Source: Pseudomonadota bacterium | GTDB lineage: Bacteria; Pseudomonadota; Alphaproteobacteria; Rhizobiales; Aestuariivirgaceae | DNA: 64,000 nt | Assembly: GCA_963205315.1 (NCBI GenBank) | Contig: CAUJIO010000056.1 | Location: forward strand, 1 to 64,000 | Direction of reading: 5' to 3' | Shown here: piece by piece, positions 4,330 to 63,292 of the stretch | How the letters are laid out: each line of letters opens with the position of its first letter | Position numbering within the stretch: the first letter of the stretch is position 1 | Notes under the pieces: generated by a model | What the model was told of the DNA's origin: nothing | Databases searched by the model: none | What the model saw: only the letters and a program-made list of their open reading frames with translations | Program-made: the position numbers and the translations under genes

Positions 4330-4338
4330 CCGTCCAAG

Positions 4339-8466: not shown

Positions 8467-8556
8467 GGAGAGGTGGCAGAGTGGTCGATCGCGCCGCACT
8501 CGAAATGCGGAGTACGCGCAAGCGTACCGGGGGTTCGAATCCCTCCCTCTCCGCCA
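8467..8556 (+). tRNA. tRNA-Ser (anticodon CGA)
   Basis: 90-nt class II tRNA. The acceptor stem GGAGAGG pairs with CCTCTCC, followed by discriminator G and an encoded CCA. The anticodon loop ACTCGAAAT gives CGA (reads UCG, Ser), the long variable arm has paired GTACGC/GCGTAC, and the T loop is GGTTCGAATCC. It lies at the border between core genes and accessory DNA, a common place for island insertion. Confidence 0.96.
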
Positions 8557-9013
8557 GTTAACCCATTGATATTGACCGATAATATGTCTCTCGGTGCGGC
8601 GCGGATTTCATCCCGCCGTTACCGTGGCTTGCGCGCGGGGGCCAGACCGCAGTCGTATACAGAGACGCCACGAGTCCGGGTTTCGTGAGCATTAGAGGCG
8701 GGATGTCTCAGCGGCCCCAAATTTGAGTACGACTCCAAGATGTAGGCTTGCGTGATGCATCTCCGCGGGATGGGATAAGTCGGAGTTGTCGTCGGCAATA
8801 GGTAGTGGCCCGAGTCCCGATGTATCCCAGAGTCACTCAAACGTGAGTCAGCTTTCGAATGCCGTCGCACGATTAACATGTTCGCTTGGATCGAAGAGTC
8901 ACCGGTCGCGCACGGCGTTCAGATCGGTTCAATCGTGCAGGGCCTGTTGGTGAGCTCCGCTTTTCTGGCAGAGGATGTGCTACACACTGATCATCCTCCT
9001 GCGGCAAGCACCT
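8557..9013. other. non-coding stretch between tRNA-Ser and the recombinase
   Basis: 457 bp with no gene I can support; overlapping small frames lack ribosome sites and recognisable products. It should contain the left junction of the island and, if the serine recombinase is the integrase, possibly its attachment site. I could not find a repeat of the tRNA 3' end elsewhere in the window by eye. Confidence 0.5.
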
Positions 9014-18887: not shown

Positions 18888-19850
18888 ATGATAACAGCAT
18901 CGATCGTGGTTGGGATAGATGTGTCGCGCGATTGGCTGGACGGATTTTGCTTTCCCGGTGAGCAGAGATTCCGGCTGGCGAACGCGGCAGAGGGCCACCA
19001 ACAGCTGATTTCGATGATTCGGCAGATGCCGCTTTCGGTTCAGGTCGGCTTCGAGGCGACGGGCGGTCAGGAGTGGGCTCTGTGGACTGCGCTTGTTGAA
19101 GCGGGGATTGATGCGCGGCAACTCCCTCCGGCTCAGATCAAGGCCTTCGCCATGTCGCGAGGCACACGCGCCAAGACTGATCGGATCGACGCCGAACTCA
19201 TCGCGCGCTTCATGCTGTTCCGCCCAGAGGCCGGCCGGCGATTGCCAAACAAGAATGTGCGTATTCTCAGAGCTTTGACGACACGGCGGGCTCAGATCGT
19301 CGACATGCGCAAACGATTTGCAGCGCAAATCGCTGCGCGGAAAAAGCAAAACATCACGGCCGATATCGAAGACATGGACGATGCCCTCAGAGCCATGCTG
19401 GATACCCAGATCGGCGATCTTGAACGCCGGATCGCAGAAGCCATCAACCAGGATGTGAACTCGGCCATCAAGGCAAAACTGCTGCTATCTATTCCTGGTA
19501 TTGGTCCGGTTTCTGCAGGAATGTTGATCGCTGAAATGCCCGAATTGGGCCGAATGACGGCAGGTCAGGCGGCAGCAATGACCGGCCTCGCTCCCGTTCC
19601 ACACGATAGCGGAACGATGCGAGGCCAACGCGCAATCGCCGGAGGCAGACGCGCCTTGCGCCGTGTGCTGTTTCAGGCGGCACTCGCCGCAGCATGTCAC
19701 AATCCGGTTCTGAAGCTCGTCGCAAAACGTCTAAAAGAGCGTGGAAAGCCCCACAAACTCGTGATCATTGCCATCGCGCGCAGGCTCATCACCATTGCAA
19801 ACGCAATCCTCAAAACCGGAACCCAATGGAAACAAAAACTCTCTGCGTAG
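18888..19850 (+). mobile_element. IS110 family transposase
   Basis: 320 residues. The N-terminal DEDD RuvC-like domain shows VGIDVSRDWLDG, FEATGGQEW and KTDRIDAELIARF; the C-terminal transposase_20 domain shows LLSIPGIGPVSAGMLIAEM and TGLAPVPHDSGTMRGQRAI with the serine nucleophile region. Length and motifs are those of an intact IS110 element, which inserts without terminal inverted repeats and is guided by its own non-coding RNA. It separates the defence pair from the copper region. Confidence 0.93.
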
Positions 19851-20647: not shown

Positions 20648-20673
20648 GTCTTTGCATTTTCGAGGTGTTCATC

Positions 20674-22053
20674 ATGCGTGTTTTCGCGCGACTTGTTTTG
20701 ACCTTGTTGCTGATTGCCGTGGGAGGTCTGGCAGGTTTCCTGTCGGCTACGACGTTCCGGCCCCATTTTGACGCTCTGGCGTCGCAGATCACAGGGAACG
20801 TGATTACTGACAACTCCGGGGGTCCCAAAATCCTGTTCTACAGGAACCCCATGGGCCTCCCTGACACGTCTCCCATTCCGAAAAAGGACTCGATGGGGAT
20901 GGACTACATCCCGGTTTATGAGGAGACAACCGGTGGTCAGGCTTCCACTGGAGAACCCAAGGTTCTCTACTACCGCAACCCGATGGGCCTGCCCGACACG
21001 TCTCCCGTTCCGAAGAAAGACTCGATGGGGATGGATTACATTCCGGTCTACGAGGATGAGGGCGGTGCGACCGATCCTTCCATTGTGAGGGTCAACGTCG
21101 AAAAGGTGCAGCGCGCCGGGGTCAAGACGGAACCTGTCACCAAACGGGTTCTGGAGGAACCGCTACATGTGCCGGGCTCGATCCAGCTCGACGAACGCCG
21201 CGAGCGTTCGATCACGCTTCGCGCCGAAGGATTTGTTGAGGAAGTGTATGCCGGGGCGACCGGCCAGCACGTCAAGGCTGGCGAACCGCTATTCCGCTTC
21301 TACAGCCCGCAAATCCTTCAAGCGGCGGTCGAATACCGGATTGCCGCCGCAGGCGGACAGAAACGGGCTGGTGCCCGCAAGCTGCTCAATCTCGGCGTGC
21401 CCGAAAGCTATATCCAATCCATCCCGCTGAAGGGCGAATTGTCACCGTCGCTCGACTGGCTATCGCCGGTCGATGGCGTACTGATGAAGAAGAACGTTGT
21501 AGTGGGCGCTCGCTCGATGCCCGGCGATGAACTCTATCGGCTGGCGGACGTGTCGATGGTTTGGGTCATTGCCGATGTCCCGGAGCAGGATGTTGGCCGG
21601 ATCAAGACGGGCGACAAGGCGATAATCTCTGTCCGGGCTTACCCGGGGCAGACCTTCACCGGCGATGTGGCCTTCATTCTTCCGGAACTCAACGCCGCGA
21701 CGCGCACCGCCTCGGTCCGCATCGAATTGCCCAATCCCGACCACAAGCTGCTCCATGGCATGTTCACCGATGTGGTGATTGACACCGCGCGATCTGGAGA
21801 AGTCATCACCGTTCCGGCTTCTGCCGTCATCGACAGCGGTAACCGGCAAGTGGCCATCGTGCAAGTCGCCAAGGGCCAGTTCAAGGCTAGGGAATTGAAG
21901 CTTGGCCGCCGTGGCGCTGGCTTTGTGGAAGTACTCGAAGGCCTGTCCGAAGGCGAATTGGTCGTCACCCGGGCCAACTTCCTGATCGACGCCGAAAGCA
22001 ACCTGCAGGCCGCCCTGACAGCACTCACCTCCGCAGAGGGAAGCGCGCAATGA
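20674..22053 (+). CDS. cusB: RND periplasmic adaptor CusB with two heavy-metal-binding repeats
   Basis: 459 residues, membrane-fusion protein linking CusA to an outer-membrane channel. A signal/anchor is followed by two nearly identical copies of the heavy-metal-binding domain (YRNPMGLPDTSPIPKKDSMG and YRNPMGLPDTSPVPKKDSMG, roughly residues 50-80 and 90-120), then the barrel-sandwich hybrid, helical hairpin and beta-barrel regions. CusB homologues carrying this domain usually have one copy, so the tandem is a local duplication. ATG at 20674 chosen over the in-frame GTG at 20665 because GAGGTG then serves as ribosome site. It overlaps cusA by 4 bp. Confidence 0.94.
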   Translation: MRVFARLVLTLLLIAVGGLAGFLSATTFRPHFDALASQITGNVITDNSGGPKILFYRNPMGLPDTSPIPKKDSMGMDYIPVYEETTGGQASTGEPKVLYYRNPMGLPDTSPVPKKDSMGMDYIPVYEDEGGATDPSIVRVNVEKVQRAGVKTEPVTKRVLEEPLHVPGSIQLDERRERSITLRAEGFVEEVYAGATGQHVKAGEPLFRFYSPQILQAAVEYRIAAAGGQKRAGARKLLNLGVPESYIQSIPLKGELSPSLDWLSPVDGVLMKKNVVVGARSMPGDELYRLADVSMVWVIADVPEQDVGRIKTGDKAIISVRAYPGQTFTGDVAFILPELNAATRTASVRIELPNPDHKLLHGMFTDVVIDTARSGEVITVPASAVIDSGNRQVAIVQVAKGQFKARELKLGRRGAGFVEVLEGLSEGELVVTRANFLIDAESNLQAALTALTSAEGSAQ

Positions 22054-25000
22054 TTGGCAAGATCATCGAATGGTCGGCCCGCAACATGGTGCTGGTGCTG
22101 ATCGGCGCGTTGTTTCTGTCGTTAGCCGGTGCGTACTCAGTAGTGACGACACCATTGGACGCGATCCCCGATCTCTCGGACACGCAGGTAATCGTCTATA
22201 CGGAGTATGCCGGACAAGCACCCCAAGTTGTCGAGGACCAGGTTACCTATCCGCTGACCACGTCGCTGCTTAGCGTTCCCAAATCCAAGGTGGTGCGGGG
22301 CTTCTCGTTTTTCGGCGTGTCGTTCATCTACATCATTTTCGAGGACGGCACCGATGCCTATTGGGCGCGCTCGCGGGTTCTGGAATATCTTAACGCGGCG
22401 TCCCGGAAACTGCCGCAAGGTGTGACGCCCTCATTGGGCCCCGATGCGACCGGTGTCGGCTGGGTCTATCAGTATGCGCTGACCGGCAAGGGCCGCGATC
22501 TCGGCGAACTGCGCACCACCCAGGACTGGCAGCTGCGCTATGCGCTCGCCAAGGCGGAAGGCGTGGCGGAGGTTGCAAGCGTCGGTGGCTTCGTCAAGCA
22601 ATACAGCGTGGTGATCGACCCGCGCCGCCTGCAGAGCCTGGGCATTTCGCTCGATACGGTGCGCGATGCCATCCGTAGCAGCAATATGGACACCGGCGGG
22701 CGCACTGTCGAAATTTCCGAAACCGAATATGCGGTGCGCGGACGCGGGCTTTTCAGGAGCGTCGAAGACATCGAGATGATCGTCCTCAAGGCCGAGAACG
22801 GCGTGCCGGTGCTGCTGCGCGATGTGGCGCGGGTCGAATTCGCACCCGACGAGCGGCGCGGCATCACCGAACTCAATGGCGAAGGCGAAGCCGTGGGCGG
22901 CATCGCGGTGCAGCGCTATGGCGAAAATGCGCTTTCAGTGATTGACAACGTCAAGGCCCGCATCGCGGACGTCAAGGCGAGCCTTCCGGAAGGAACCGAG
23001 ATCAAGACAGTCTATGACCGGTCCGATCTGATCCACCGCGCCATTGAAACACTGAAGAGCACGCTGCTCGAAGAGAGCCTGATCGTGGCGGTGGTTTGCG
23101 TCATCTTCCTGCTTCATGTGCGCAGCGCGTTGGTCGCCATCCTGATGCTGCCGGTGGGCATCCTCATCGCTTTCGCGCTGATGCGGATGCTGGGGCTTTC
23201 CTCCAACATCATGAGTCTCGGCGGTATTGCCATTGCCATTGGCGCTATGGTGGACGCGGCGATCGTGATGATCGAGAATGCCCACAAGCATATGGAACGG
23301 GCAAAGCCTGGCACACCGCGTGTCGAGATCATTGTCGCGGCGGCGAAGGAGGTCGGGCCGCCACTGTTCTTCGGCCTGCTGGTGATCACCGTGTCGTTCC
23401 TGCCCATCTTCACGCTGGAGGCACAGGAAGGGCGACTGTTCAAACCGCTCGCCTACACCAAGACCTTCTCGATGGCGGCGGCGGCGTTCCTGTCGATCAC
23501 GCTGGTTCCTGCACTGATGTACCTCTTCATTCGAGGCAGGATCATCGCCGAGCACCGAAATCCCATCAACCGGCTGCTGATCTGGCTCTACCGTCCCGTC
23601 ATCAAGGGCGTACTGGGGGCGAAAATTTTCACCGTTGCATTGGCGCTCGTGGTTCTGGGCGCCAGTTATTGGCCGGCATCCAAGCTTGGCTCGGAATTCA
23701 TGCCAACGCTTGATGAGGGCACCTTGTTCTACATGCCGACGACGCTGCCGGGCTTGTCCGTCACCAAGGCGGCGGAACTCCTCCAGACGCAGAACAAAAT
23801 CATCAAATCGTTTCCCGAGGTGGACTCGGTCTTCGGCAAAGCGGGGCGCGCCAACAGCGCCACCGACCCGGCACCGACCGAGATGATCGAAACCATCGTC
23901 AATCTCAAACCGAAGGAGCAATGGCGGGCGGGCGTGACGGTTGATTCCCTGATCGCCGAGATGGACAGATCGCTGCAGTTCCCTGGTGTGTCGAATGCCT
24001 GGACCATGCCGATCAAGGCGCGCATCGACATGCTCTCGACCGGCATCAGGACGCCAGTAGGCGTCAAGGTCTTCGGGCCGGATTTGCGGGAAATCGAGCG
24101 CCTTGGCCGCGAGATCGAGAAGGCGCTGAGGACGCTGCCTGAGACGTCGAGCGCGTTTTCGGAACGAGTCATCGGTGGTTACTATCTCGAAATCACTCCG
24201 GACCGTCAGCGCCTGGCGCGCTATGGGCTGATGGTCCAGGACGTGCAGGACACGATCGCCATGGCCTTGGGCGCCGAGCCCATCACGACCGCGGTGGAAG
24301 GCCGCGAACGCTATGCCGTGACGCTCCGCCTGCCGCGCGATCTGCGCAGCGATCCCGAAAGCATTGCCCGCAATGTGCGCGTGAGCGCCGGCAATGGCGT
24401 TTCGGTGCCGCTGGGTGATGTGGCGGACATCAAACTGACAACCGGTCCGTCCACCATCCGAACCGAGAATGCCCAACTCGCGGCCTATATCTTCGTCGAC
24501 ACTCGCGACAGCGACATCGGCGGCTATGTGGCGAAGGCGCAACGGGTCGTCGCTGAGAACGTGAAGTTTCCGCCTGGCTTTTTCATCACTTGGAGCGGTC
24601 AGTTTGAGTATCTGGAGCGCGCCAAGGAGCGCCTTAAGATTGTCGTGCCGGTGACTTTGCTCATCATCTTCATGCTGCTCTATCTTAACTTCAGACGCAT
24701 CACGGAAACCTTTATTGTCATGCTGTCGCTGCCGTTCTCTCTAGTAGGCGGGCTATGGCTCATGTGGTGGATGGGGTTCAATTTCTCCGTCGCTGTTGCC
24801 GTTGGTTTCATTGCCCTTGCGGGTGTCGCGGCCGAAACCGGCGTCGTCATGCTCATGTATTTGCAGAACGCGCTCGATGACTGGCAGCTTCGCGCAGCCG
24901 AGGAAGGCCGCCCCTTCACCAAGGCGGACCTCTATGGCGCCATCATGGAGGGTGCGGTTGGCCGGGTGCGTCCCAAGATGATGACGGTTGCCGCCATCAT

Positions 25001-25214
25001 GGCAGGTCTGTTGCCCATCCTGTGGAGCACGGGTACCGGATCGGAGGTCATGCAGCGCATCGCCGTTCCGATGATCGGCGGCATGGTGTCATCAACTGTC
25101 CTGACCTTGGTCGTCATTCCCGCCATCTTCGCGCTTGTCGAAGGCGCACGAATGCGGATGAGGAAGAAGCGCGAACTTGTTCCATCAAACCTTGAACCTG
25201 CAGTCCAGACATAG
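22050..25214 (+). CDS. cusA: RND heavy-metal efflux pump, CusA type
   Basis: 1054 residues, about 12 membrane segments, inner-membrane proton-driven pump of the HME-RND family. The three methionines that bind Cu(I)/Ag(I) in E. coli CusA (M573, M623, M672) align with Met562 (FYMPTT), Met612 (TEMIET) and Met661 (RIDMLSTG), with identical spacing, so I favour copper/silver over zinc/cobalt. Transported ion is passed from CusB and CusF-type carriers to an outer-membrane factor. No tolC-like gene is in this operon; one is encoded at 51785. Confidence 0.95.
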   Translation: MIGKIIEWSARNMVLVLIGALFLSLAGAYSVVTTPLDAIPDLSDTQVIVYTEYAGQAPQVVEDQVTYPLTTSLLSVPKSKVVRGFSFFGVSFIYIIFEDGTDAYWARSRVLEYLNAASRKLPQGVTPSLGPDATGVGWVYQYALTGKGRDLGELRTTQDWQLRYALAKAEGVAEVASVGGFVKQYSVVIDPRRLQSLGISLDTVRDAIRSSNMDTGGRTVEISETEYAVRGRGLFRSVEDIEMIVLKAENGVPVLLRDVARVEFAPDERRGITELNGEGEAVGGIAVQRYGENALSVIDNVKARIADVKASLPEGTEIKTVYDRSDLIHRAIETLKSTLLEESLIVAVVCVIFLLHVRSALVAILMLPVGILIAFALMRMLGLSSNIMSLGGIAIAIGAMVDAAIVMIENAHKHMERAKPGTPRVEIIVAAAKEVGPPLFFGLLVITVSFLPIFTLEAQEGRLFKPLAYTKTFSMAAAAFLSITLVPALMYLFIRGRIIAEHRNPINRLLIWLYRPVIKGVLGAKIFTVALALVVLGASYWPASKLGSEFMPTLDEGTLFYMPTTLPGLSVTKAAELLQTQNKIIKSFPEVDSVFGKAGRANSATDPAPTEMIETIVNLKPKEQWRAGVTVDSLIAEMDRSLQFPGVSNAWTMPIKARIDMLSTGIRTPVGVKVFGPDLREIERLGREIEKALRTLPETSSAFSERVIGGYYLEITPDRQRLARYGLMVQDVQDTIAMALGAEPITTAVEGRERYAVTLRLPRDLRSDPESIARNVRVSAGNGVSVPLGDVADIKLTTGPSTIRTENAQLAAYIFVDTRDSDIGGYVAKAQRVVAENVKFPPGFFITWSGQFEYLERAKERLKIVVPVTLLIIFMLLYLNFRRITETFIVMLSLPFSLVGGLWLMWWMGFNFSVAVAVGFIALAGVAAETGVVMLMYLQNALDDWQLRAAEEGRPFTKADLYGAIMEGAVGRVRPKMMTVAAIMAGLLPILWSTGTGSEVMQRIAVPMIGGMVSSTVLTLVVIPAIFALVEGARMRMRKKRELVPSNLEPAVQT

Positions 25215-48786: not shown

Positions 48787-49497
48787 ATGGATATGACTCG
48801 GAGACATCTGGCATTGGCTTGCGCAGTGGCATGCTTTGCAACGGGTCGTGCCGTCACATCCATCGCGCTGGCTGCAGGGCCTTCTTCCCGGCGGCATGAT
48901 AGTGACGATGCGTTTCCCATTGAACACGACGAAGTAAAGAAGATTGCGCCGGCTTTTCGACGCACCGTGATCGACTACACATCGGACGAACAGGTTGGGA
49001 CGGTGATTGTCGATCCCGGAGCAAAGTACCTTTATCTCTTATTTGAAGGCGGCAAGGCGTTGCGTTACGGCATTGGCGTCGGACGCCAAGGCTTCGAATG
49101 GTCAGGAGAGGCTTTCATCCGTAGAAAAGCCAAGTGGCCTCGCTGGACACCTCCGAAGTCCATGGTGACAAGAGATCCACTGGCAGCCAAATGGGCGGGC
49201 GGCATGCCGGGCGGTCCGGATAATCCGCTCGGAGCACGGGCCTTGTATCTTTATCAGGGCGAGGTTGACACACTTTATCGCATTCACGGAACCAACCAGC
49301 CGCAATCGATCGGCAAGGCTGTTTCGTCGGGTTGCATCCGGTTGCTCAATGCTGATATCGCGGACCTCTACAGCCGGGTGCGCCTCGGTGCGAAGGTCAT
49401 TGTGCTCCCGGTTATGCCGGCTCATCCTGAACTCATGCCGTCCGATGATTTCCGCACCAAGCGACCCCAAGGAAGCCGATCCGAGAGTATTTACTGA
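48787..49497 (+). CDS. L,D-transpeptidase (YkuD domain), copy 2
   Basis: 236 residues with signal peptide and YkuD domain; the sequence YGIGVGRQGFEWSG, NPLGARALYLYQGEVDTLYRIHGTNQPQ-like block and catalytic Cys in SSGCIRLL are clearly paralogous to copies at 26930 and 56090. The stop overlaps the ATG of the next gene (TGATG), so the two are co-translated. Cell-wall cross-linking in the periplasm. Confidence 0.92.
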   Translation: MDMTRRHLALACAVACFATGRAVTSIALAAGPSSRRHDSDDAFPIEHDEVKKIAPAFRRTVIDYTSDEQVGTVIVDPGAKYLYLLFEGGKALRYGIGVGRQGFEWSGEAFIRRKAKWPRWTPPKSMVTRDPLAAKWAGGMPGGPDNPLGARALYLYQGEVDTLYRIHGTNQPQSIGKAVSSGCIRLLNADIADLYSRVRLGAKVIVLPVMPAHPELMPSDDFRTKRPQGSRSESIY

Positions 49498-50825
49498 TGT
49501 CTTTCAAGTCGAATTCTGAGTCCAAGAGCACAGCTATGAAGCTGAATGCGTTATGCCACTGCATCACCCTTGACAGGGATCTTCTCAGCCAAGTCTTGGC
49601 CGACGAAACAGCGGATACGGCCTTGGCCGCACTCGTCCTGGAACGTGCTTCAGCGATGTTCTCAAATGTGGCTGTGTTCGCATTATCGTCAGTTCTTTCG
49701 CAGATGACCGAGGTGATCGAAGCCATTGTGAGGGTCACTCAAACGCCTTTATACCAGAAGGAAGTGTTGGAACGGGCGCCACTCTGGGCCCGTCTCGACC
49801 ATGGACCCGCTGGCGTGTTCATGGGATTTGACTTTCACGTGGGGCATGATGGCCCTCAACTGATTGAAATCAACACGAATGCTGGCGGGGCCTTCCTGAA
49901 CGCGGCGCTGAGACGCGCCCATCAGGAATGCTGTTCGCGGATGGATAGCCACGCCGGAAATCTTGGAGGTCGAAGCTTCGAACCCGCCGTCCTGAAGATG
50001 TTTGAAAGGGAGTGGCGGTCCCAGCGCAAATCAGGACGCTTGGGCAGGATCGCAATCGTTGACGACCAGCCGCAAAACCAGGCGCTTTATCCCGAGTTCC
50101 TGCTTGCGCAATCACTGTTTCGCAGGAACGGAATCGAGGCGGTCATCGCCGGTCCGGATGAACTCATCTTGGACAGCGGCAAGCTGTTGATCTCCGGAGA
50201 GCCGATTGACCTTGTCTATAATCGCCTGGTGGATTTTCAACTCAGCGCCGAACAGCATCAGGTATTGCGCCTCGGCTATGAGATGGGAGCGGCGGTCATA
50301 ACGCCAAACCCCCGCAACCACGCCCTCTACGCAGACAAGCGCAATCTGGTGCTGTTGTCCGACGCAGCCCGGCTAAGGGACTGGGGAGTAGACTCGCGCG
50401 ACCTTGAGATTCTATCGAAGGCGATCCCGAGAGCTCAGGAAGTGACGCCGACAAATGCGGATAGGATCTGGCGTGACCGCAAGAAGAGTTTTTTTAAGCC
50501 GTTTGCAGGATACGCAAGCAAAGCCGTCTACCGGGGCGATAAGGTGACGAGTGCACGCTGGGCTGAAATCCGAACGGGCGGCTATATTGCACAGGAGTTC
50601 GCCGAGCCGGGGGAGAGAATGGTCGTTCTCGATGGCGAGTTGCTAGCCCGCAAAGTTGACTTTCGCCTCTATGCCTATGAGGTAGATACTCTACTTACCG
50701 CGGCGAGGGTGTACCAAGGCCAGACAACCAACATGAGAACGCCCGGAGGTGGATTTGCTCCAGTGCTTGTGGTGGAGGATGGGGTAGGCAGCCTGACGTC
50801 ATGCGAGGCAGCAGACACTGTCTAG
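49497..50825 (+). CDS. ATP-grasp-like protein of unknown substrate
   Basis: 442 residues, no signal peptide. VFMGFDFHVGHDGPQLIEIN-type segment with a conserved Asn-rich stretch (EINTNAGGAFLNAAL) and the lysine/glycine region SFFKPFAGYASKAVYRGDK followed by YIAQEFAEPGE resemble the ATP-grasp fold, possibly of a circularly permuted ligase such as glutathionylspermidine synthase. The substrate is unknown. It is fused by overlap to an L,D-transpeptidase gene, so a peptide or cell-wall substrate is possible. Confidence 0.6.
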   Translation: MSFKSNSESKSTAMKLNALCHCITLDRDLLSQVLADETADTALAALVLERASAMFSNVAVFALSSVLSQMTEVIEAIVRVTQTPLYQKEVLERAPLWARLDHGPAGVFMGFDFHVGHDGPQLIEINTNAGGAFLNAALRRAHQECCSRMDSHAGNLGGRSFEPAVLKMFEREWRSQRKSGRLGRIAIVDDQPQNQALYPEFLLAQSLFRRNGIEAVIAGPDELILDSGKLLISGEPIDLVYNRLVDFQLSAEQHQVLRLGYEMGAAVITPNPRNHALYADKRNLVLLSDAARLRDWGVDSRDLEILSKAIPRAQEVTPTNADRIWRDRKKSFFKPFAGYASKAVYRGDKVTSARWAEIRTGGYIAQEFAEPGERMVVLDGELLARKVDFRLYAYEVDTLLTAARVYQGQTTNMRTPGGGFAPVLVVEDGVGSLTSCEAADTV

Positions 50826-53316: not shown

Positions 53317-54678
53317 ATGTTTAACAGACGTCATCTGCTTGGCGCCGGCGCGGCGCTTGTATCAACCACAGCCTGGGCGAAAACTTCTAACATGGGCCTG
53401 CCCGAGGCTGCCGTTATGGAGAGTGCGGCAACCCAGCCGCCTCAGGCACCAACGGCAGGGCCGGACTACAACCCGGTCGTGACCTTGAACGGTTGGTCCG
53501 CTCCCTTCCGAATTAACAACGGTGTAAAGGAATTCCATCTCGTCGCGGAGCCCGTCGAGCGCGAGATGGCTGAGGGCATGACGGCTCGACTCTGGGGTTA
53601 TAACGGTCAGTCGCCTGGCCCGACCATTGAAGCTGTAGAGGGTGACAGGGTCCGGATCTTTGTTACCAACAAACTACCTGAACACACGACGATCCATTGG
53701 CATGGAATGATCCTGCCCTCCGGCATGGATGGCGTGGGTGGTCTTTCCCAGCCCCATATTCCGGTCGGAAAGACTTTCATCTATGAGTTCGATCTCGTGA
53801 AGTCCGGCACCTTCATGTACCACCCCCACGCCGATGAGATGGTCCAGATGGCCATGGGCATGATGGGATTCTTCGTGGTTCATCCAAAGGACCCGAAATT
53901 CATGCGCGTCGACAGGGACTTTGTGTTCCTCCTCAACGCCTATGACGTTGATCCTGGCTCCTACGTGCCGAAGATCATGACTATGACTGACTTCAATCTG
54001 TGGTCATGGAACAGCCGCATCTTCCCAGGCATCGATCCGCTCGTCGTCTCCAAGAATGACCGTGTGCGGGTGAGGGTTGGCAATCTCACGATGACCAATC
54101 ATCCGATTCACATGCATGGTTATGACTTTGAGGTGACCTGCACGGATGGTGGTTGGGTCAGGCCGGAGGCAAGATGGCCCGAAGTCAGCATCGACATACC
54201 GGTAGGCGCCATGCGGGCCTATGAGTTCGATGCCAAATATGAAGGTGACTGGGCAATTCACTGCCACAAGTCTCACCACACCATGAATGCCATGGGGCAC
54301 GATGTACCGACGTTCATTGGTGTCGATAAATCAAATCTCACAAAAAAGATCCGGCGGCTTCAACCCGAATACATGCCTATGGGCACGAAGGGTATGGCCG
54401 ACATGGGTGAAATGGAGATGCCGCTGCCGGACAACACCGTTCCAATGATGACCGGATGGGGTCCGCATGGCGCACTGGAAATGGGAGGCATGTTCTCTGT
54501 CGTAAAAGTGCGGCAGGGGATCAGCGCCGGGGATTACAAGGATCCAGGTTGGTACGAGAACCCCCCGGGTACGCAGGCCTATGAGTGGACGGGCGAAATT
54601 CCCGACTTCACAAAGGCCACTGACGCCAAGACGAAGATAACGCCGCCGCCGTCCTCCAATCAGGGCGACGAAGGCTAA
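53317..54678 (+). CDS. multicopper oxidase, second copy
   Basis: 453 residues; export signal (MFNRRHLLGAGAALVSTTAWA). The copper motifs HWHG, YHPHADE, HPIHMHG and HCHKSHHTMNAMGH are all intact, so a four-copper enzyme with axial Met. The Met pairs MVQMAMGMMG, MADMGEMEM may bind Cu(I). Overall pattern is that of a CopA/CumA-like oxidase and differs from the one at 47203. ATG after GGAGA; 14 bp from the outer-membrane factor. Confidence 0.93.
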   Translation: MFNRRHLLGAGAALVSTTAWAKTSNMGLPEAAVMESAATQPPQAPTAGPDYNPVVTLNGWSAPFRINNGVKEFHLVAEPVEREMAEGMTARLWGYNGQSPGPTIEAVEGDRVRIFVTNKLPEHTTIHWHGMILPSGMDGVGGLSQPHIPVGKTFIYEFDLVKSGTFMYHPHADEMVQMAMGMMGFFVVHPKDPKFMRVDRDFVFLLNAYDVDPGSYVPKIMTMTDFNLWSWNSRIFPGIDPLVVSKNDRVRVRVGNLTMTNHPIHMHGYDFEVTCTDGGWVRPEARWPEVSIDIPVGAMRAYEFDAKYEGDWAIHCHKSHHTMNAMGHDVPTFIGVDKSNLTKKIRRLQPEYMPMGTKGMADMGEMEMPLPDNTVPMMTGWGPHGALEMGGMFSVVKVRQGISAGDYKDPGWYENPPGTQAYEWTGEIPDFTKATDAKTKITPPPSSNQGDEG

Positions 54679-54719: not shown

Positions 54720-55172
54720 ATGAAAAAGATTGCTACGATATTGGCCGGCCTTGTTTTGGGCGCAGGGACAGCTCATGCAGGCGGCGCTACGACCGCAGGA
54801 CAACCTGGAAAGAAATCCGAAGTTACGCGTGTAATCAAGGTAACGATGAGTGAAACCGAAGATGGAGCGATGATTTTCTCGCCCAAGCAGTTCAAGATCA
54901 AGAAGGGTGAAACCATTCGCTTCGCGATCGTGAATAAGGGTGAGACCGATCACGAGTTCGTTCTAGATGACCATAAGGGCATGGAGAAACACAAGGCTTT
55001 GATGGAGAAATTCCCTGAAATGGAACACGCTGATCCGAATTCCATTCGTCTTGAGCCCGGTGCCAAAGGCGAAATCATTTGGAAGTTCTCAGCTTCCGGA
55101 GAATTTCAATTTGCCTGCTTGATCCCAGGACATATGGAAGCCGGTATGCACGGCCCAGTCCTGGTCAACTGA
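54720..55172 (+). CDS. cupredoxin-domain periplasmic copper protein
   Basis: 150 residues: signal peptide, then a plastocyanin/azurin-like fold with FSPKQFKIKKGETIRFAIVNKG, His in TDHEFVLDD and the C-terminal copper loop CLIPGHMEAGMHG (Cys, His, Met). It shuttles Cu or electrons, probably to or from the multicopper oxidase just upstream (41 bp). Confidence 0.92.
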   Translation: MKKIATILAGLVLGAGTAHAGGATTAGQPGKKSEVTRVIKVTMSETEDGAMIFSPKQFKIKKGETIRFAIVNKGETDHEFVLDDHKGMEKHKALMEKFPEMEHADPNSIRLEPGAKGEIIWKFSASGEFQFACLIPGHMEAGMHGPVLVN

Positions 55173-55203: not shown

Positions 55204-55485
55204 ATGAACATTACAAAGTATATGCTCGCTGCAACAGCAGTGTCGTTTATGGTGACCGGTGCTTGGGCCGCAGAGTTCACCAAGGGTGTGGTGAAAAAGG
55301 TTGATGTTAAAGCCAAGAAGGTCACGGTTATTCACGAAGAGCTCAAGAGCCTTGAAATGCCTGCCATGACCATGGTGTTCCGGACAGCTACCGATGAGAT
55401 GCTGGCATCGCTCAAGGATGGCCAAACCATCGAGTTTGTTGCGGATCGCGTGAACGGGAAGCTGACCATCACTGAGATCAAGTAA
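55204..55485 (+). CDS. CusF-like periplasmic copper-binding protein
   Basis: 93 residues: signal (to about 22), small beta-barrel. Ligands align with E. coli CusF: H44 for H36, M55 for M47 and M57 for M49. The position of the Cu-stacking Trp44 of CusF is M52 here (EMPAMTMVF). It hands Cu(I) to CusB/CusA. Follows the cupredoxin gene by 31 bp. Confidence 0.9.
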   Translation: MNITKYMLAATAVSFMVTGAWAAEFTKGVVKKVDVKAKKVTVIHEELKSLEMPAMTMVFRTATDEMLASLKDGQTIEFVADRVNGKLTITEIK

Positions 55486-56089: not shown

Positions 56090-56800
56090 ATGGTTGCCTT
56101 CTTGACCCGCCGCCGGTGGCTTGCCTCCGCTCTGACCGTCATGACGCTGGGGGGCAGTAGATTGGCCATGGGCAACGCGCTCTACGGGGGCGAGGACGAG
56201 GAATATTTCGACCCGGCTTTACTGCCACCAGCAGAGTCTGAGATCGACTTCCCGATCGAGAAAGTGAACCTTCGCAGCATCCCCAAACGTTTCCGCCGGC
56301 AGATTGTCGACTTCGAAGGCACCGAAGCCTTAGGGACGATTATCGTCGAACCCGATAATCGGTTCTTGTACTATGTCATCGAACAGGGACAGGTTATCCG
56401 ATACGGTGTGGGGGTAGGGCGTGCCGGATTTGCGTGGTCGGGGAACGCGATTGTTGGCATGAAGCGTCGTTGGCCGCGTTGGGTACCGCCACGCAGCATG
56501 GTTGACCGGGATGCCAACGCTCGCCGCTGGATCAACGGTCAGCCTGGAGGACCAGACAACCCGCTAGGCGCTCGGGCTCTTTATCTGTTCTCCAACGGCG
56601 CTGATACCTTGTATCGGATCCACGGGACGAATGAGCCAGAGACTATCGGCAAGGCTGTTTCCTCAGGGTGCATACGAATGTTAAATGAGGATGTGGCTCA
56701 TCTCTATGAGCTTGTTGAAGTTGGCACACCTGTGATCGTTCGCTCAACTCATGATGTCAGACAACAAAACGAATCCAGTATCTATCACCACAAGTCATGA
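56090..56800 (+). CDS. L,D-transpeptidase (YkuD domain), copy 3
   Basis: 236 residues, signal peptide, YkuD domain with YGVGVGRAGFAWSG, NPLGARALYLFSNG, RIHGTNEPETIG and catalytic Cys in SSGCIRML. Third paralogue of the enzymes at 26930 and 48787. It begins directly after the preceding stop codon. The 281 bp after it contain no gene I can support. Confidence 0.92.
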   Translation: MVAFLTRRRWLASALTVMTLGGSRLAMGNALYGGEDEEYFDPALLPPAESEIDFPIEKVNLRSIPKRFRRQIVDFEGTEALGTIIVEPDNRFLYYVIEQGQVIRYGVGVGRAGFAWSGNAIVGMKRRWPRWVPPRSMVDRDANARRWINGQPGGPDNPLGARALYLFSNGADTLYRIHGTNEPETIGKAVSSGCIRMLNEDVAHLYELVEVGTPVIVRSTHDVRQQNESSIYHHKS

Positions 56801-57081: not shown

Positions 57082-57978
57082 ATGAAGTGCTCATTTCAAT
57101 TGGGTCCCAGCCTGCGGTTGCATATCTCCATGACGATCTTGATTCTGCTCTTTCCCGTATTTTTCGTACGCAGTGGGAATGCTGAGAGTATCCATGAACT
57201 TGCGCAGCATACCCACATTCACGGAATTTCATACAATCGGGATGCTGGCGAAGCAGAACTGCTGCTCGCTACTCATCACGGAATGTTTGCTGTGTTGCGA
57301 GATGGCACGGCGAAACAGATTTCTTCCACACACGATTTCATGGGATTCTCAGCTGATCCAGGCGACCCGCTGAGGTATTTTGGAAGTGGCCATCCTGCAG
57401 GTGGCGGTAACTCGGGTTTCCTTGAGTCGCGCGACAATGGCTCAACTTGGTCGAGAGTGTCGGACGGAATCAATGGACCGGTCGATTTTCACAGTCTTGC
57501 CGTGAGCGCGGCCAATCCGACGGTAATCTATGGTGTCTTCGACGGCATCCAGAAAAGCTCCGATGGAGGCACCACGTGGCGGATCTCTGGCACTGTTCCA
57601 GATGATTTGGTTCAATTGGCTGCCTCTTCAAAGAGCACTGAACAAATTTTTGCCGCCACCAAGAGCGGCTTGAAAATCAGCAACAATTCGGGTCAGTCCT
57701 GGAGGACTGCTTCATTTGATGGCGAAATTGTCACTGCCGTCCAGGTTGAACGGGATGCAACCATCTATGCATTTGTACTCGGTCATGGGTTCCTGAAAAG
57801 CAATGAGTCAAATCTCAGCGACTGGATTCCGCTGTCCAACTCCTTCGGAAAGGCGATTCCGCTTCATATGGCGACAAAGCCCGGTACTCCGAGCCAGATG
57901 GTCGTTTCCACGCAGACCAGCGAAGTCTTCGAGTCACAAGATGGTGGAAAGACTTGGCGACCGTTCGGCCAGCCTTGA
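57082..57978 (+). CDS. F510_1955-type exported beta-propeller protein
   Basis: 298 residues: signal peptide (to about residue 35), then BNR/sialidase-type repeats with repeated SxDGGxTW loops (SRDNGSTWSRVSDG, SSDGGTTWRISG, SNNSGQSWR, SQDGGKTWRPFG) and the start HTHIHGISYN. Matches the F510_1955 family of predicted glycosyl-hydrolase-like proteins, of unproven activity. The cytochrome c gene begins 2 bp after its stop, so the two form an operon. Confidence 0.82.
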   Translation: MKCSFQLGPSLRLHISMTILILLFPVFFVRSGNAESIHELAQHTHIHGISYNRDAGEAELLLATHHGMFAVLRDGTAKQISSTHDFMGFSADPGDPLRYFGSGHPAGGGNSGFLESRDNGSTWSRVSDGINGPVDFHSLAVSAANPTVIYGVFDGIQKSSDGGTTWRISGTVPDDLVQLAASSKSTEQIFAATKSGLKISNNSGQSWRTASFDGEIVTAVQVERDATIYAFVLGHGFLKSNESNLSDWIPLSNSFGKAIPLHMATKPGTPSQMVVSTQTSEVFESQDGGKTWRPFGQP

Positions 57979-57980
57979 TC

Positions 57981-58490
57981 ATGAAGTTTCTAGACAACAG
58001 GTCCATCTTCATCGTGCCTGCGATGCTGGTCTTTGCGATGGCTGGGACAGGGTTGTCACTTTTGGACTTCGATGACCCTGCAAGAGTCGCTACCAAGCGT
58101 TCCTCAACCGATCAGGCGTCGATCGATCAAGGACGGATTTGGTACGAGTCCTATTGTGCCGGTTGTCATGGAAAAAACCTTGAGGGTCAACCCAATTGGA
58201 AAAGTCCTTTGCCCAGTGGCCGACTCCCGGCGCCTCCCCATGATGCCAGCGGGCACACTTGGCACCATCCGGATGATATCTTGGCTAGTATCATATTGAG
58301 AGGGCTTAAACCTTTCGCCGGTGAAGAGTATGAAAGCGACATGCCTGCGTTCGAAGGAGTGTTGAGTGTGGAACAGGTCAACGACATCCTGGCGTACATC
58401 AAGGACAGATGGCCGGAGCGCGAACGCAGCTACCAGGATCAGATGACGGATCACGCATCAAACTCTGCCCCAGCGTCGCCCGCTAACTAG
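57981..58490 (+). CDS. membrane-anchored c-type cytochrome
   Basis: 169 residues: N-terminal membrane anchor (SIFIVPAMLVFAMAGTGLSLL), one haem c site C-A-G-C-H (YCAGCHGKNLEGQP) and a distal Met candidate (SDMPAFEGV). Electron carrier in the periplasm. It is a plausible donor to the CuA subunit encoded at 59291. Confidence 0.92.
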   Translation: MKFLDNRSIFIVPAMLVFAMAGTGLSLLDFDDPARVATKRSSTDQASIDQGRIWYESYCAGCHGKNLEGQPNWKSPLPSGRLPAPPHDASGHTWHHPDDILASIILRGLKPFAGEEYESDMPAFEGVLSVEQVNDILAYIKDRWPERERSYQDQMTDHASNSAPASPAN

Positions 58491-59290: not shown

Positions 59291-60031
59291 ATGACTGGAA
59301 AACCAGCGGGTCCGCGCCAAGATGGCCGGGCTAGCCTAAGCACGCGCCGCGGTTTTATCGCGGCTGCCAGCCTCGGCGCCGTGAGCCTCTATGGATTATG
59401 GGCGGGACTTGGCGCGGCACCCTTACGCTTTTGGGATCTCGGCGGCGCAGATATGAGTGACATGGAAATGTCAAGCGGGGGGCACGGGTCTACAGGCGGC
59501 CTGTCACCCGAGGAGTTCCGCCGCATGGCTGAAGAATTCAATGATAAACATCGGCAGACAGATGGAAGTGTTTCTGTCACGCCCGCCGAGAATGGGCAGT
59601 CCGTGACGGGAATGGAAATGCCTACCGAGCCTGATAACGCGGCCTTACCAATGCCCGACATGGACATGTCGGAAACGGACGGTCACGCGGGCCATCAGAT
59701 GCCAAGCGTGACGGAGACGGAACAGGCTGCCTCGCATGACAGCGAAGTGCTGCCATTGGAAGTCTATGTGCTGGCGCAACAATGGTCGTTCGACCCGTCC
59801 CTGCTTCGGCTGAAGGCCTACCAGCCCTATCGTTTCCGAATGATGGCGGTGGATGCCGCCCATGGCGCGTCAATTCAGCTCGGCAGTGCCAGCCATATCA
59901 TTCGGCTTCCCAAAGGGGCGCTGGTCGAACGTGAACTCTCTTTCACTCAACCCGGAGAATATCTCCTGTATTGCACCATTTATTGCGGCGAAGGCCACCA
60001 ATTTATGAGCGCCAAAATCATCGTCGCGTGA
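59291..60031 (+). CDS. CuA-containing oxidase subunit II-like protein
   Basis: 246 residues. A twin-Arg-like signal or anchor (STRRGFIAAASLGAVSL), a long His/Met/Asp-rich linker (residues 50-150), and a cupredoxin with a complete CuA site: H191 (DAAHGAS), C228, C232, H236 and M239 (CTIYCGEGHQFM). The Glu whose backbone carbonyl normally contributes is Ile230. It should take electrons from a c-type cytochrome and pass them to the membrane subunit encoded 7 bp downstream. Confidence 0.88.
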   Translation: MTGKPAGPRQDGRASLSTRRGFIAAASLGAVSLYGLWAGLGAAPLRFWDLGGADMSDMEMSSGGHGSTGGLSPEEFRRMAEEFNDKHRQTDGSVSVTPAENGQSVTGMEMPTEPDNAALPMPDMDMSETDGHAGHQMPSVTETEQAASHDSEVLPLEVYVLAQQWSFDPSLLRLKAYQPYRFRMMAVDAAHGASIQLGSASHIIRLPKGALVERELSFTQPGEYLLYCTIYCGEGHQFMSAKIIVA

Positions 60032-60038: not shown

Positions 60039-61706
60039 ATGACCATCCAATCGATTTCCAGGAAGTTGAATGACCTCCCATCCTCTGACCGACTGTTCCT
60101 GAAGACGTTCGCTGGAGTGGCGCTTGCCTCCCTGTTGGTCGGATTGTTGTTTGGCTTGGCAACAGCCCTCATTCGCACCGGTTATGCGGAAGCGGAATCA
60201 TCTACCGGATACCGCATGATGACGGCACATGGCGTCACCGTGTTCTTCTATTGGCTCTACTTCGCTCAAATGGCGTTCCTGCTGGCGCTCGCCGCTTCGC
60301 AGTTCGAGGGTAAGCCCCGTATCGCCTGGGCGCCCGCAGCCTGGACGGGGCTATTGGCAATGGTGTTGGGCTTCTTTGCCAGCCAGTCCGGCACCTACCT
60401 CGGAACACCTCTGCTCTATGACGGCTCCCCGGAACTCGTGGGTGAGAACATGTTGTCGGCCGGCATTTTCTATTCCGGCTATGTGCTCCTCGCCGCGGGT
60501 CTCTTCCTGCTGGCAGCCAGCGCAATTGCCACAACGCTCGCGGCCAAACCCAGCGGCGTGAAGGACGTCTGGTCGACTATCGGCTTTGCCGTGACTGCTT
60601 GGGCCGGGCTCGTGATGGTCAGCAGCATTGCCACACTCAACACATTTCTTCCGGCCACCGCATGGGCTTTTGGACTGGCGGCGATGCCAGCCAACCATGA
60701 AACCGGTTGGCATCTACTCTTCCACAATCTGCATTATCTGCCACTGATGGGAACAGTCATCATCTGGTATGCGGTAATCCAGGACATCACCGGCGTGGGC
60801 TCGATCTTCGGACAACGTTTCTCGAAAATAATCTTTACGCTTTACCTTGTCTTCGTTCCGCCAACGTCGCTCTATCATATGTTCCTCGAGCCGGACCTGT
60901 CGCCGTTTCTGCGTGGACTCGGATCCCTCCTGTCACTGTTCATCAGCGTGCCGACGATCGCGGTATTCCTGGTGATCGTCACCTCGCTCGAGGCCCATGC
61001 GCGCGCACGGGGTGCGCGAGGGCTCTTCGGCTGGCTACGCAGCCTCCCGTGGAACAATCCAGCGGTCTCTGCGATCGGCTGGGCAGTGGTCAACCTGGCG
61101 CTGGGTGGCATCTTTGCCTTCGTTCTCATCCAAGAGCGCTTGGCGCCGTTACTCAGCGATACGTTCTTCGTACCGGCCTACTTTCACTTCCTGACCATCG
61201 GTACCGTCACGCTTACACTATTGGCAGCTTTCGCCTGGGCCATGCCTTCAGTGTTCGGCCGCAAACTCCTGGCGCCGCGCCTGCTGACTGCTATACCCGC
61301 GGTGCTCACGTTCGGGTTGGCGCTGTTCGGGGGCGCCGGGATGGCGGCCGGATTGAGCGGCATGCCGCGCCGCGTGCTCGATCCGGCCTATGACGGGGCC
61401 GCACCTCAGGTGTGGACGGCCATGTCGCCCTATATTGCCGCAGGCGCAATCATCATGGCGGTTTCGCTCACAGCGTATGTGGTGGTCCTGACGGCCACTG
61501 CGATGGGCGCACCGGCCCCAAAGTCAGCCATCGCACCCGCTACGCCTCGCTCGGAAGGCGACCTCATGGTATTCCGCCAGCCGGCCTGGACGGCATCACT
61601 TGCCGTCGCGATTCTGGTTGGTGGGATGTATGCCGCCACGCTTGTCGCATTCTCCATTCTGCGAGCCCTGCCACTCGTGGCCGGGGCTGCAACCGGTGCC
61701 CACTGA
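60039..61706 (+). CDS. B-family (ba3-like) heme-copper oxidase subunit I with altered active site
   Basis: 555 residues, about 13 membrane helices. Alignment to Thermus ba3 (recalled) is anchored by LFGWLRSLPWNNPA. Low-spin haem ligands H64 (TAHGVT) and H383 remain, as does the first CuB His H229 with the cross-link Tyr233 (FHNLHY). But the CuB His-His pair is Y279-H280 (SLYHMFLEP), and the high-spin haem ligand is Y381 (VPAYFHF). Two of the ligands needed for O2 reduction are thus missing, while the fold and CuA partner are kept. It may be a redox protein with a different reaction or no catalysis. Confidence 0.88.
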   Translation: MTIQSISRKLNDLPSSDRLFLKTFAGVALASLLVGLLFGLATALIRTGYAEAESSTGYRMMTAHGVTVFFYWLYFAQMAFLLALAASQFEGKPRIAWAPAAWTGLLAMVLGFFASQSGTYLGTPLLYDGSPELVGENMLSAGIFYSGYVLLAAGLFLLAASAIATTLAAKPSGVKDVWSTIGFAVTAWAGLVMVSSIATLNTFLPATAWAFGLAAMPANHETGWHLLFHNLHYLPLMGTVIIWYAVIQDITGVGSIFGQRFSKIIFTLYLVFVPPTSLYHMFLEPDLSPFLRGLGSLLSLFISVPTIAVFLVIVTSLEAHARARGARGLFGWLRSLPWNNPAVSAIGWAVVNLALGGIFAFVLIQERLAPLLSDTFFVPAYFHFLTIGTVTLTLLAAFAWAMPSVFGRKLLAPRLLTAIPAVLTFGLALFGGAGMAAGLSGMPRRVLDPAYDGAAPQVWTAMSPYIAAGAIIMAVSLTAYVVVLTATAMGAPAPKSAIAPATPRSEGDLMVFRQPAWTASLAVAILVGGMYAATLVAFSILRALPLVAGAATGAH

Positions 61707-61718: not shown

Positions 61719-61916
61719 ATGACCGAAGATTCCATTCTCGTTGCATTCGTCTGGCTGATCTGGACGGCACTGGCCGTCCTTTATGCCTTCGTGCCGATGT
61801 TCTCCATGCCTGGCAGCGCCATGGTGTGGGGCAGCGGAGCCGCCGTCTTTCTCGGACTGGCGATCATGACGGCAGCCCGCGAAATTCAACTGAAATCTAC
61901 TACGCAACGCCACTGA
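61719..61916 (+). CDS. small two-span membrane protein of the oxidase-like cluster
   Basis: 65 residues with two hydrophobic segments (ILVAFVWLIWTALAVLYAFV and AMVWGSGAAVFLGLAIM). 12 bp after the subunit I gene, GGAG ribosome site. Possibly a small accessory subunit (as in other oxidases), family unknown. Confidence 0.7.
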   Translation: MTEDSILVAFVWLIWTALAVLYAFVPMFSMPGSAMVWGSGAAVFLGLAIMTAAREIQLKSTTQRH

Positions 61917-61949
61917 GCTCATTTAGTGGATCACAAAAGGAGAATGAAA

Positions 61950-62594
61950 ATGCTGAAGACAAAATTGCTGGTCGCCGTCACTGCGGCCGCCCTGGTTTTT
62001 GGATCGCCAACTGGCTTCGCCCAGACGCAGCCCGATCCTCATCACCCGGAACAAACAGGGGCAGAAGTTACTGCTCCACCTAACCAACCGGCCGCAGGAA
62101 TGTCCATGATGAACATGATGGCTGGCATGATGAAGATGATGGGCGGCGGTCAAATGGGCATGGGTGGCATGGACATGGCCGGGATGGGCATGACGGAGCG
62201 TGTCGAGGGTCGCATCGCCTTCCTTCATGCTGAACTCCAGATCACCAATAGCCAGGCCAAGCTCTGGGACGCCTATGCCGGCGCACTCAGGGACAATGCC
62301 AGGCGCCTCAAGGACAGTGGTGGCGGCATGATGGCTGGCATGCAGGGTCCGGCGTTGCTTGGCCAGCTGGATGCGCAGGAGAAGATGCTTAGTGCCCGTC
62401 TCGAAGGTGTCAGGGCCATGAAGGCATCATTGGCGCCGCTTTACGAAGCATTGACTGAAGACCAGCGCAAGACGGCCGATGAATTGCTGGCGCCTCACAT
62501 GGGACTCATGGGCAAAGGCATGATGCAAGGTGGCATGATGCAGGGCGGTACGACGCAGGGCGGCTCCATGCCCGTGCAGAACAGTCTGCAGTGA
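61950..62594 (+). CDS. Met-rich Spy/CpxP-like periplasmic protein
   Basis: 214 residues: signal peptide (to about 25), a Met/Gly-rich stretch (MNMMAGMMKMMGGGQMGMGG), an LTxxQ-type helical domain (AFLHAELQITNSQAKLWDAY; LYEALTEDQRKTADELLAP) and a second Met-rich tail (GKGMMQGGMMQGG). Resembles Spy/CpxP envelope chaperones, with added metal-binding Met runs. Start 61950 chosen for the GGAG at 61939. Confidence 0.88.
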   Translation: MLKTKLLVAVTAAALVFGSPTGFAQTQPDPHHPEQTGAEVTAPPNQPAAGMSMMNMMAGMMKMMGGGQMGMGGMDMAGMGMTERVEGRIAFLHAELQITNSQAKLWDAYAGALRDNARRLKDSGGGMMAGMQGPALLGQLDAQEKMLSARLEGVRAMKASLAPLYEALTEDQRKTADELLAPHMGLMGKGMMQGGMMQGGTTQGGSMPVQNSLQ

Positions 62595-62652
62595 CTTATC
62601 AATGTGCACGGCCGGCCCCCATAGGGCCGGCCAATGCCGAAGGAGTTTTTCC

Positions 62653-62994
62653 ATGGGTAGTCTCGTTTATTTTCTCATATTCGCCGGTCTGTTTGCCTTG
62701 ATGATGCGATTTGGCTGCGGATCACATGTCCTTGGTCACGGCCATGGCCACCGGCACGGTTCCGCGCCAGGGATCCCGGACGGCCTGGCCGGCGGCGACA
62801 CCGCCAAGGACCCTGTGTGCGGCATGACGGTTGACACTGCGAATGCCCTATCCAGCGTCCAGGCCGGGCAGACTTACTACTTCTGTTCAGCGACTTGCCG
62901 CGACCGCTTTGTGGCATCACCTGAAAAGTTCATCGGCAATGGCGAGAAGCCTGCAGCAACTATGGGGACCTCACATGCCTCTCACCAGCACTGA
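62653..62994 (+). CDS. YHS-domain metal-binding membrane protein
   Basis: 113 residues from the ATG at 62653 (AGGAG upstream): one membrane segment, a His-rich loop (HVLGHGHGHRHG), then a YHS domain with KDPVCGMTVD and YYFCSATCRDRF. YHS domains accompany copper ATPases and bind metal. Overlaps the next gene by 20 bp in another frame. Confidence 0.9.
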   Translation: MGSLVYFLIFAGLFALMMRFGCGSHVLGHGHGHRHGSAPGIPDGLAGGDTAKDPVCGMTVDTANALSSVQAGQTYYFCSATCRDRFVASPEKFIGNGEKPAATMGTSHASHQH

Positions 62995-63292
62995 AAGCCG
63001 CTTGGGCCATCCGGGTTTGAATGAGCCGCACCGGCTTCTGATTCCGATCATCCCACTGGGCATGAGTCTGGGTCTGTTCCTGGTGATTGCCTATGTCGCC
63101 TGCATCTTCTTCTATTTTCTGTTTCCGAACTTGATCCTTAATCACGCCGTGCTCGCGCTCTTTCTCCCGGGCTTCAAACTCCTCGACTGGCCGAGCTTTC
63201 TGCTCGGATTGATCGAGAGCTTTGGTTACGGCTGGGTCGTGGCACTGGTGTTTGGGCCACTATTCAATTTCTTCTCGGCGCGACAGAGCTGA
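62975..63292 (+). CDS. DUF5676 membrane protein
   Basis: 105 residues with two to three hydrophobic segments (LGMSLGLFLVIAYVACIFFYFLFP; ESFGYGWVVALVFGPLFNFF). Matches DUF5676, a family often beside YHS-domain proteins. It starts inside the YHS gene (20-bp overlap), which suggests translational coupling. Confidence 0.85.
   Translation: MPLTSTESRLGHPGLNEPHRLLIPIIPLGMSLGLFLVIAYVACIFFYFLFPNLILNHAVLALFLPGFKLLDWPSFLLGLIESFGYGWVVALVFGPLFNFFSARQS

Follow-up and report, generated by a model that had tools for sequence, protein, structure and literature searches.

The window analysed here, a stretch of 64,000 nucleotides, carries a haem-copper oxidase (HCO)-like subunit I with tyrosines at positions 279 and 381, and we refer to the proteins that share this pair as the YY family. 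YY subunit I travels in a three-gene operon with a CuA subunit II and a membrane protein of about 62 residues. In the window, this operon is preceded by genes for a multicopper oxidase, a cupredoxin, a CusF-type protein and a c-type cytochrome and followed by LTXXQ, YHS and DUF5676 genes; the Pfam matches of these neighbours bear out the copper island that an initial sequence-only reading had described.

53317..54678, + strand: multicopper oxidase (Pfam Cu-oxidase_3, Cu-oxidase_2)
54720..55172, + strand: cupredoxin (Pfam Copper-bind, Cupredoxin_1)
55204..55485, + strand: CusF-type periplasmic copper protein (Pfam CusF_Ec, 78.9 bits)
57954..58490, + strand: c-type cytochrome, a possible electron donor by inferred role (Pfam Cytochrome_CBB3 and Cytochrom_C, above cut-off)
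59291..60031, + strand: subunit II, with a Tat-like N-terminus, one membrane anchor, a His/Met-rich linker and a complete C-terminal CuA domain (phmmer to CuA domains, e.g. 6ptt, 2cua)
60039..61706, + strand: HCO-like subunit I of the YY family, Tyr279 and Tyr381 (open reading frame of 555 amino acids)
61719..61916, + strand: small membrane protein, third gene of the operon, probably two helices (hydropathy with two maxima)
61926..62594, + strand: LTXXQ (Spy/CpxP-like) protein with a Met-rich stretch (Pfam LTXXQ)
62602..62994, + strand: YHS-domain protein (Pfam YHS)
62975..63292, + strand: DUF5676 membrane protein (Pfam DUF5676, 31.1 bits; cut-off 27.6)

The block of multicopper oxidase and CusF genes is flanked by two related proteins (48787-49497 and 56090-56800; 51% identity over 210 residues), the second of which is an L,D-transpeptidase (Pfam YkuD). 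A 442-residue open reading frame amid the copper genes (49497-50825) has no Pfam match at 1e-5. The product of 57082-57978 scores 174.1 bits against the NCBIfam model F510_1955 "glycosylhydrolase", just below the cut-off of 175, and its cluster is also found near the YY operons of L020, L036 and L038. Elsewhere in the window, an IS110-family transposase (18888-19850) stands shortly before a CusB/RND pump pair (20665-25214), a possible sign of mobility.

The open reading frame at 60039-61706 encodes a full-length HCO subunit I (Pfam COX1, 133.8 bits; cut-off 34.8), which we matched to solved structures by sequence, with two alignments to the Thermus ba3 enzyme. Its predicted fold reaches TM scores of 0.76-0.78 against ba3-type chains and 7deg, and it falls far below the cut-off of the aa3-type equivalog model CtaD_CoxA (NCBIfam TIGR02891, 34.4 bits vs 670.75). 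As the COX1 model accepts the protein well above its cut-off, counts of respiratory oxidases made with this model would include the YY family.

We counted residues over 49 distinct proteins, that of the window included (L041 and L051 encode an identical protein). L032, which is in two pieces, and the fragments L042, L043, L044, L046 and L047 were left out of the counts and of the subunit I alignment, and L050 was counted but is absent from the alignment. Both tyrosines are present in all 49 full-length members. The low-spin haem ligands H64 and H383, the CuB ligands H229 and H280, and Y233, the active-site Tyr on helix VI, are likewise found in 49/49. Y279 occupies the third CuB position, opposite the first His of the ba3 His-His pair, and Y381 stands opposite the ba3 proximal His of the high-spin haem, each in every protein. 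Where a CuB/FeB site is defined by three His, subunit I therefore keeps H229 and H280 and has Tyr as the third. The complete set of invariant residues is H64, H229, N230, Y233, Y279, H280, E284, S373, D374, Y381, H383, R444 and R445. The residue assignments of the sequence-only reading are thus confirmed by the two ba3 alignments and the residue table, and neither alignment supplied another His for the sites of 279 and 381. These same data rule out misalignment as the source of the two tyrosines, and their presence in 49/49 rules out a chance substitution or a sequencing error. The ba3 residue numbers used throughout are those that we presume for that enzyme.

Several further changes surround this site. 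H232, present in 48 of the 49 proteins, stands at ba3 Val236, a position that we take to line the active site; as a possible substitute metal ligand, it might stand in for the His missing at 279. Val236 is the subject of mutant structures, judging by the titles of 4g70-4g72 among our structure matches, and our literature search on this residue found no paper. The HNT motif of ba3 has become SDT (S373 and D374 in 49/49), and Ala369 is found in 49/49 opposite a ba3 residue that we take to be Asp372. H225 is present in 41/49, the remaining proteins having N or S. Y244, opposite ba3 Tyr248, is kept in 48/49, and position 240, Tyr in ba3, is Val in the YY rows; in ba3, both positions belong to the K-channel analogue. 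The Arg pair, which presumably holds the haem propionates in ba3, is kept in the YY family. In PMC3128077, the Aquifex enzyme is described with His60/His385 as haem B ligands, His383 on haem A3 and His222/273/274 on CuB, a spacing identical to that of subunit I.

The partners of subunit I are conserved as well. Subunit II was called in 44/49 loci, the window included, and tblastn adds L027, L034 and L043 (47/49); the small membrane protein, which has no Pfam or NCBIfam match at 0.01, was called in 46/49 loci and tblastn adds L010 (47/49). All four missing partner genes fall at contig ends. Our subunit II alignment holds the window and 36 of the 40 called sequences (L032, L042, L047 and L050 being left out), and the five CuA ligands H191, C228, C232, H236 and M239 are invariant in its 37 rows, so that the subunit is complete, as had been claimed from the window alone. 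Residues 228-232 of the window protein read CTIYC; the Glu found between the Cys of eNOR-like and ba3 subunits is a hydrophobic residue throughout the YY family. The N-terminus was read as Tat-like by eye, and the twin Arg is missing in some rows. By contrast with the comparison enzymes, the linker is rich in His and Met: a median of 15 His+Met (range 6-42; median length 103; 37 rows), against 2 (0-3) in 24 eNOR-like and 2 (1-5) in six ba3 proteins over the 45 residues that precede the CuA core, or a fraction of 0.137 vs 0.044 and 0.044. In some members, L040 for example, the linker holds many MDHG repeats. Its composition suggests that this linker could bind copper. Judged by its residues, the electron input is intact, with the CuA ligands, the bis-His low-spin haem ligands and the Arg pair all in place.

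The YY family is rare and patchy. A peptide-pattern scan of genome contigs of all species found 47 related loci, although distant members may be missed because the patterns came from the window protein. By their labels, all are from Pseudomonadota (two named Proteobacteria bacterium only), and subunit I is split in two pieces in one of them, L032. The family is present in 2/69 genomes of the same taxonomic family, the window's own included (three further ones match at about 1e-32 through a paralogue only), in 6/385 genomes of the class, again with the window's own, in 1/11 genomes of one order and 2/300 of another, and in 1/398 genomes of a phylum sample, which is the window's own. In that sample, with at most three candidates per genome scored, the matches drop from 7.8e-246 for the window's own to 6.7e-53; the lower matches that we fetched are Gln-type or ba3-type, with His at both 279 and 381. 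Plasmid records gave three matches with a coverage of 80% or more, all of them in Azospirillum, whereas viral contigs gave no relative, which speaks against viral carriage. Isolates with the operon include Hydrogenophaga pseudoflava (L011) and Azospirillum (L050). L041, from an Aestuariivirga metagenome-assembled genome (72% identical to the window protein), and L049 (60%) also have LTXXQ and DUF5676 genes near the YY operon. No relative with a mixed His/Tyr pair was seen in the samples searched. The dN/dS ratio is 0.08-0.17 in nine of ten YY pairs; the tenth (L007/L009) gives 0.48 at a dS of merely 0.066, and dS is near-saturated for the window/L041 pair. The YY family is under purifying selection and is a real family.

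To place this family among HCOs, we compared 47 YY rows with 33 eNOR-like and 10 ba3 rows. The proximal-haem His and the CuB His are near-universal in the HCO superfamily, and none of the 43 eNOR-like and ba3 rows departs from the proximal His or the His at 279. The YY family has six positions of its own, each fixed in it and fixed differently in both other groups (258, 263, 279, 373, 374 and 381), and four of these (279, 373, 374 and 381) are at or adjoining the high-spin haem/CuB site, if, as we take it from ba3, 279 is a CuB ligand, 373/374 lie on the propionate side and 381 is the proximal ligand. All three groups have in common the low-spin haem ligands, the Arg pair, W338 and many glycines. 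By this comparison, the half that takes in electrons has been conserved and the catalytic half rebuilt. By its sequence, subunit I is homologous to HCOs and yet departs from them at two His positions, the proximal ligand and the third CuB ligand.

In our trees, the YY proteins form one clade with full support and a long stem, so that the two Tyr changes do define a clade, a point that the sequence-only reading had put forward for checking. This clade is sister to the eNOR-like enzymes with a support of 99/96, in a tree that is rooted on a single A-family sequence (L056) and for which the program warns of long branches meeting. Eleven positions are fixed as in eNOR-like enzymes and not as in ba3 (W72, T165, P205, W224, V240, S262, Y269, S277, P420, F538 and L544), ten as in ba3 and not as in eNOR-like enzymes, including Y233 and P275, and a profile comparison with one protein of each kind ties (1.3e-29 for eNOR-like, 3.5e-30 for ba3). 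The tree thus favours an eNOR-like placement, while the fixed positions (11:10) and the profile tie separate neither. The "former oxidase" of the sequence-only reading is itself unsure, because the nearest relatives may be either ba3-type or eNOR-like. The active-site Tyr position is Gln in 33/33 eNOR-like rows. Gln at this position is the mark of an eNOR in PMC8756737, and the YY family has Y233 there.

The genome of the window holds eight COX1 matches, seven above cut-off, one of which is an eNOR-like paralogue (L002/L064). In L064, the eNOR-like pair (7646-9938, - strand) has GHSSQQIN in subunit I and CNEYC in subunit II, and adjoins genes that resemble by eye those for haem O synthase, SCO and cytochrome b. 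Another eNOR-like subunit I, on the Thermus thermophilus plasmid pHB5018d (L102, CDS 3395-5077), has HFK for HFH, so that its second low-spin haem His is Lys; it adjoins Rrf2 and DUF542 genes, and a multicopper oxidase is near.

The association with copper extends beyond the window. Copper-type genes start at most 9 kb away in 25/49 YY loci, and in 19 of the 27 loci that have at least 2.5 kb on both sides; this broad set, used for the comparisons below as well, counts LTXXQ proteins and two clusters that carry no model label, and a narrower set gives 23/49. By cross-BLAST without self hits, copper genes were found at 23/48 YY loci vs 0/24 eNOR-like control loci (Fisher p 9e-6; 0/20 and p 4.6e-5 against the genome-drawn controls alone; 21/48 vs 0/24 with the narrower set), p-values that are optimistic because the queries come from YY loci and the loci share descent. 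One control, L102, has an annotated multicopper oxidase that this rule missed (weak match, 1e-3), and by annotation two ba3 loci outside the control set carry a P-type ATPase (L103) and a heavy-metal-associated domain (L108). The P-type ATPases near YY operons are of the copper type in 10/10 tested (of 15 in relatives; above the TIGR01511 cut-off), and the RND pump cluster was called CusA-type by eye (Pfam ACR_tran).

CopRS-type regulators adjoin the YY operon in part of the family: 6/7 response regulators tested and 3/3 sensors tested are above the heavy-metal cut-offs (TIGR01387 and TIGR01386, respectively). In 4/42 loci, each with a heavy-metal regulator nearby, subunit II is preceded by a CusR/HprR-type box, TTACA-N4-TGTAA (exact in L020, L021 and L031, one mismatch in L025; 0.004 expected per 430 bases). 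This box was not found upstream of the window operon, nor upstream of those of L011 and L045, which have regulators above cut-off. In E. coli, such a box answers to both CusR (copper) and HprR (oxidants), according to PMC9302797. The copper link of the YY family is real, although not universal, and copper genes do not accompany the clade in every case: for about half of the loci, the available flanking DNA holds no copper-type gene.

Part of this unevenness follows the residue at position 225. The subclade with N or S there (L007, L008, L009, L010, L013, L018, L134 and L135) has a copper-type gene at 1/8 loci, an RND pump, vs 24/40 loci with H225 (p 0.02, some contigs being short; L032, L043, L044, L046 and L047 were left out). 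Its six measured subunit II linkers hold more Met than His (median 10 vs 4), whereas in the other 31 it is His that prevails (Met 4 vs His 10). These differences would fit, perhaps, a second function inside the YY family.

Since both His are replaced by Tyr in every relative checked, with a CuA partner and frequent copper-resistance genes, the YY family probably has a different redox job. Such a change of role had been suggested from the window alone and fits the pattern of kept and changed residues; the thiol oxidation and electron storage offered as examples find no specific support here. Tentatively, and with a little less than even confidence, we propose that the YY complex may be a three-subunit membrane redox enzyme of the B-family/eNOR-like branch, with a rebuilt O2- or peroxide-reducing site, used at least partly in copper stress. 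A sharper version, which we consider rather doubtful, would make it a membrane-bound, Cu(I)-driven peroxide/O2 reductase with an HCO fold, a haem ligated by Tyr as in catalase and a second metal site of mixed His/Tyr ligands, receiving its electrons via the His/Met-rich CuA subunit. To our knowledge, the HCO superfamily has no catalytic class of copper-driven peroxide or oxygen reductases with a Tyr-ligated haem. In such an enzyme, Cu(I) collected by the linker, or else a periplasmic cytochrome or cupredoxin, would deliver electrons to CuA, and from there, by way of the low-spin haem, they would reach the rebuilt centre, where Tyr381 would take the place of the proximal His, and His229, His232 and His280 together with Tyr279 would hold the second metal. 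With tyrosinate as its ligand, the haem would stay ferric, which makes peroxide the likelier substrate (by a catalase- or peroxidase-like cleavage of the O-O bond), or O2 handled by the second metal. The net effect could be the oxidation of periplasmic Cu(I), or the removal of peroxide that would otherwise react with Cu(I). By analogy, the Tyr-ligated haem of yeast Sfh5, with a potential of -330 mV according to PMC7462610, suggests that CuA would not readily reduce such a haem to the ferrous state, and favours a ferric cycle of the peroxidase kind. Against this reading, Sfh5 itself shows no measurable catalase activity.

Other explanations have to be weighed against this one. The high-spin haem could have been lost altogether, leaving a site with copper only or an empty one, and the complex would then act as an electron relay, a copper sensor or a copper oxidase, from CuA to the low-spin haem. 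The proximal His, the propionate-side HNT and one CuB ligand have changed together while the low-spin ligands are untouched, and haem loss would account for these residues equally well; we nevertheless rate it as unlikely, since Tyr233, Tyr279, His280, His229 and Tyr381 are each found in 49/49, which points to a site that works and has not been emptied. Alternatively, the YY complex might still reduce O2 to water with an altered affinity or potential, His232 serving as third CuB ligand and Tyr381 being a tolerated axial ligand. Tyr233 (49/49) and His232 (48/49) would suit this, as would the kept CuA, low-spin His and Arg pair and the HCO fold, but none of the 43 eNOR-like and ba3 rows compared lacks the proximal His, HNT has become SDT, Ala369 faces ba3 Asp372 in 49/49, and the potential of a Tyr-ligated haem, extrapolating from Sfh5, would be too low for CuA-driven reduction. 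This makes retained O2 reduction improbable in our eyes. Were the YY complex related to the B-family NO reductases, it might act on nitrogen oxides. This would agree with the grouping with eNOR-like enzymes (99/96, with a single A-family sequence as the root) and with the name of one of the hosts, Thioalkalivibrio denitrificans. It appears quite improbable, as the NO reductases of Table A4 in PMC8756737 all lack the active-site Tyr that the YY family keeps, a reading of the neighbours by eye revealed no denitrification gene, and the profile comparison between eNOR-like and ba3 ties. Finally, that the YY proteins are decaying, functionless oxidases, as the split subunit I of L032 and the patchy distribution (6/385 class genomes) might suggest, is hardly credible in view of a dN/dS of 0.08-0.17 in 9/10 pairs, a three-gene operon that is kept and key residues at 49/49.

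The YY family has a wider interest. With both Tyr fixed, and CuA, the low-spin ligands and the active-site Tyr kept, it tests, as a natural experiment, which ligands are needed for oxygen chemistry, and if it serves copper tolerance, a membrane redox enzyme would join the pumps and soluble multicopper oxidases for which that system is known. We recognised no description of the family in the literature searched, subscription papers being mostly outside that search; a 2024 survey of NO reductases in PNAS may cover it.

Compared with known systems, the YY complex is close to the ba3 oxidase of Thermus thermophilus in the fold of subunit I over its length, the low-spin His pair, the equivalents of H229 and H280, the active-site Tyr and a CuA subunit with a single anchor. 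It differs in the two Tyr, one in place of a CuB ligand and one in place of the proximal His, the His at Val236, SDT for HNT and the His/Met-rich linker. The eNOR-like enzymes, unlike the YY family, keep His at 279 and 381, have Gln for the active-site Tyr and carry a short linker without His/Met enrichment. The gene order is II-I-small in the YY family and IIa-II-I in ba3, the latter as given in PMC3128077. The multicopper cuprous oxidases of the CueO/CopA type would have the same proposed job, the oxidation of periplasmic Cu(I), and belong to a different Pfam family; multicopper oxidases are encoded in the same region of the window. Such cuprous oxidases have a soluble multicopper fold without haem. 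Catalases have a proximal Tyr on their haem, with His and Asn near the opposite face, and the predicted coordination of the YY site would resemble theirs in both respects, in a fold to which those of catalases and of other Tyr-ligated haem proteins are unrelated.
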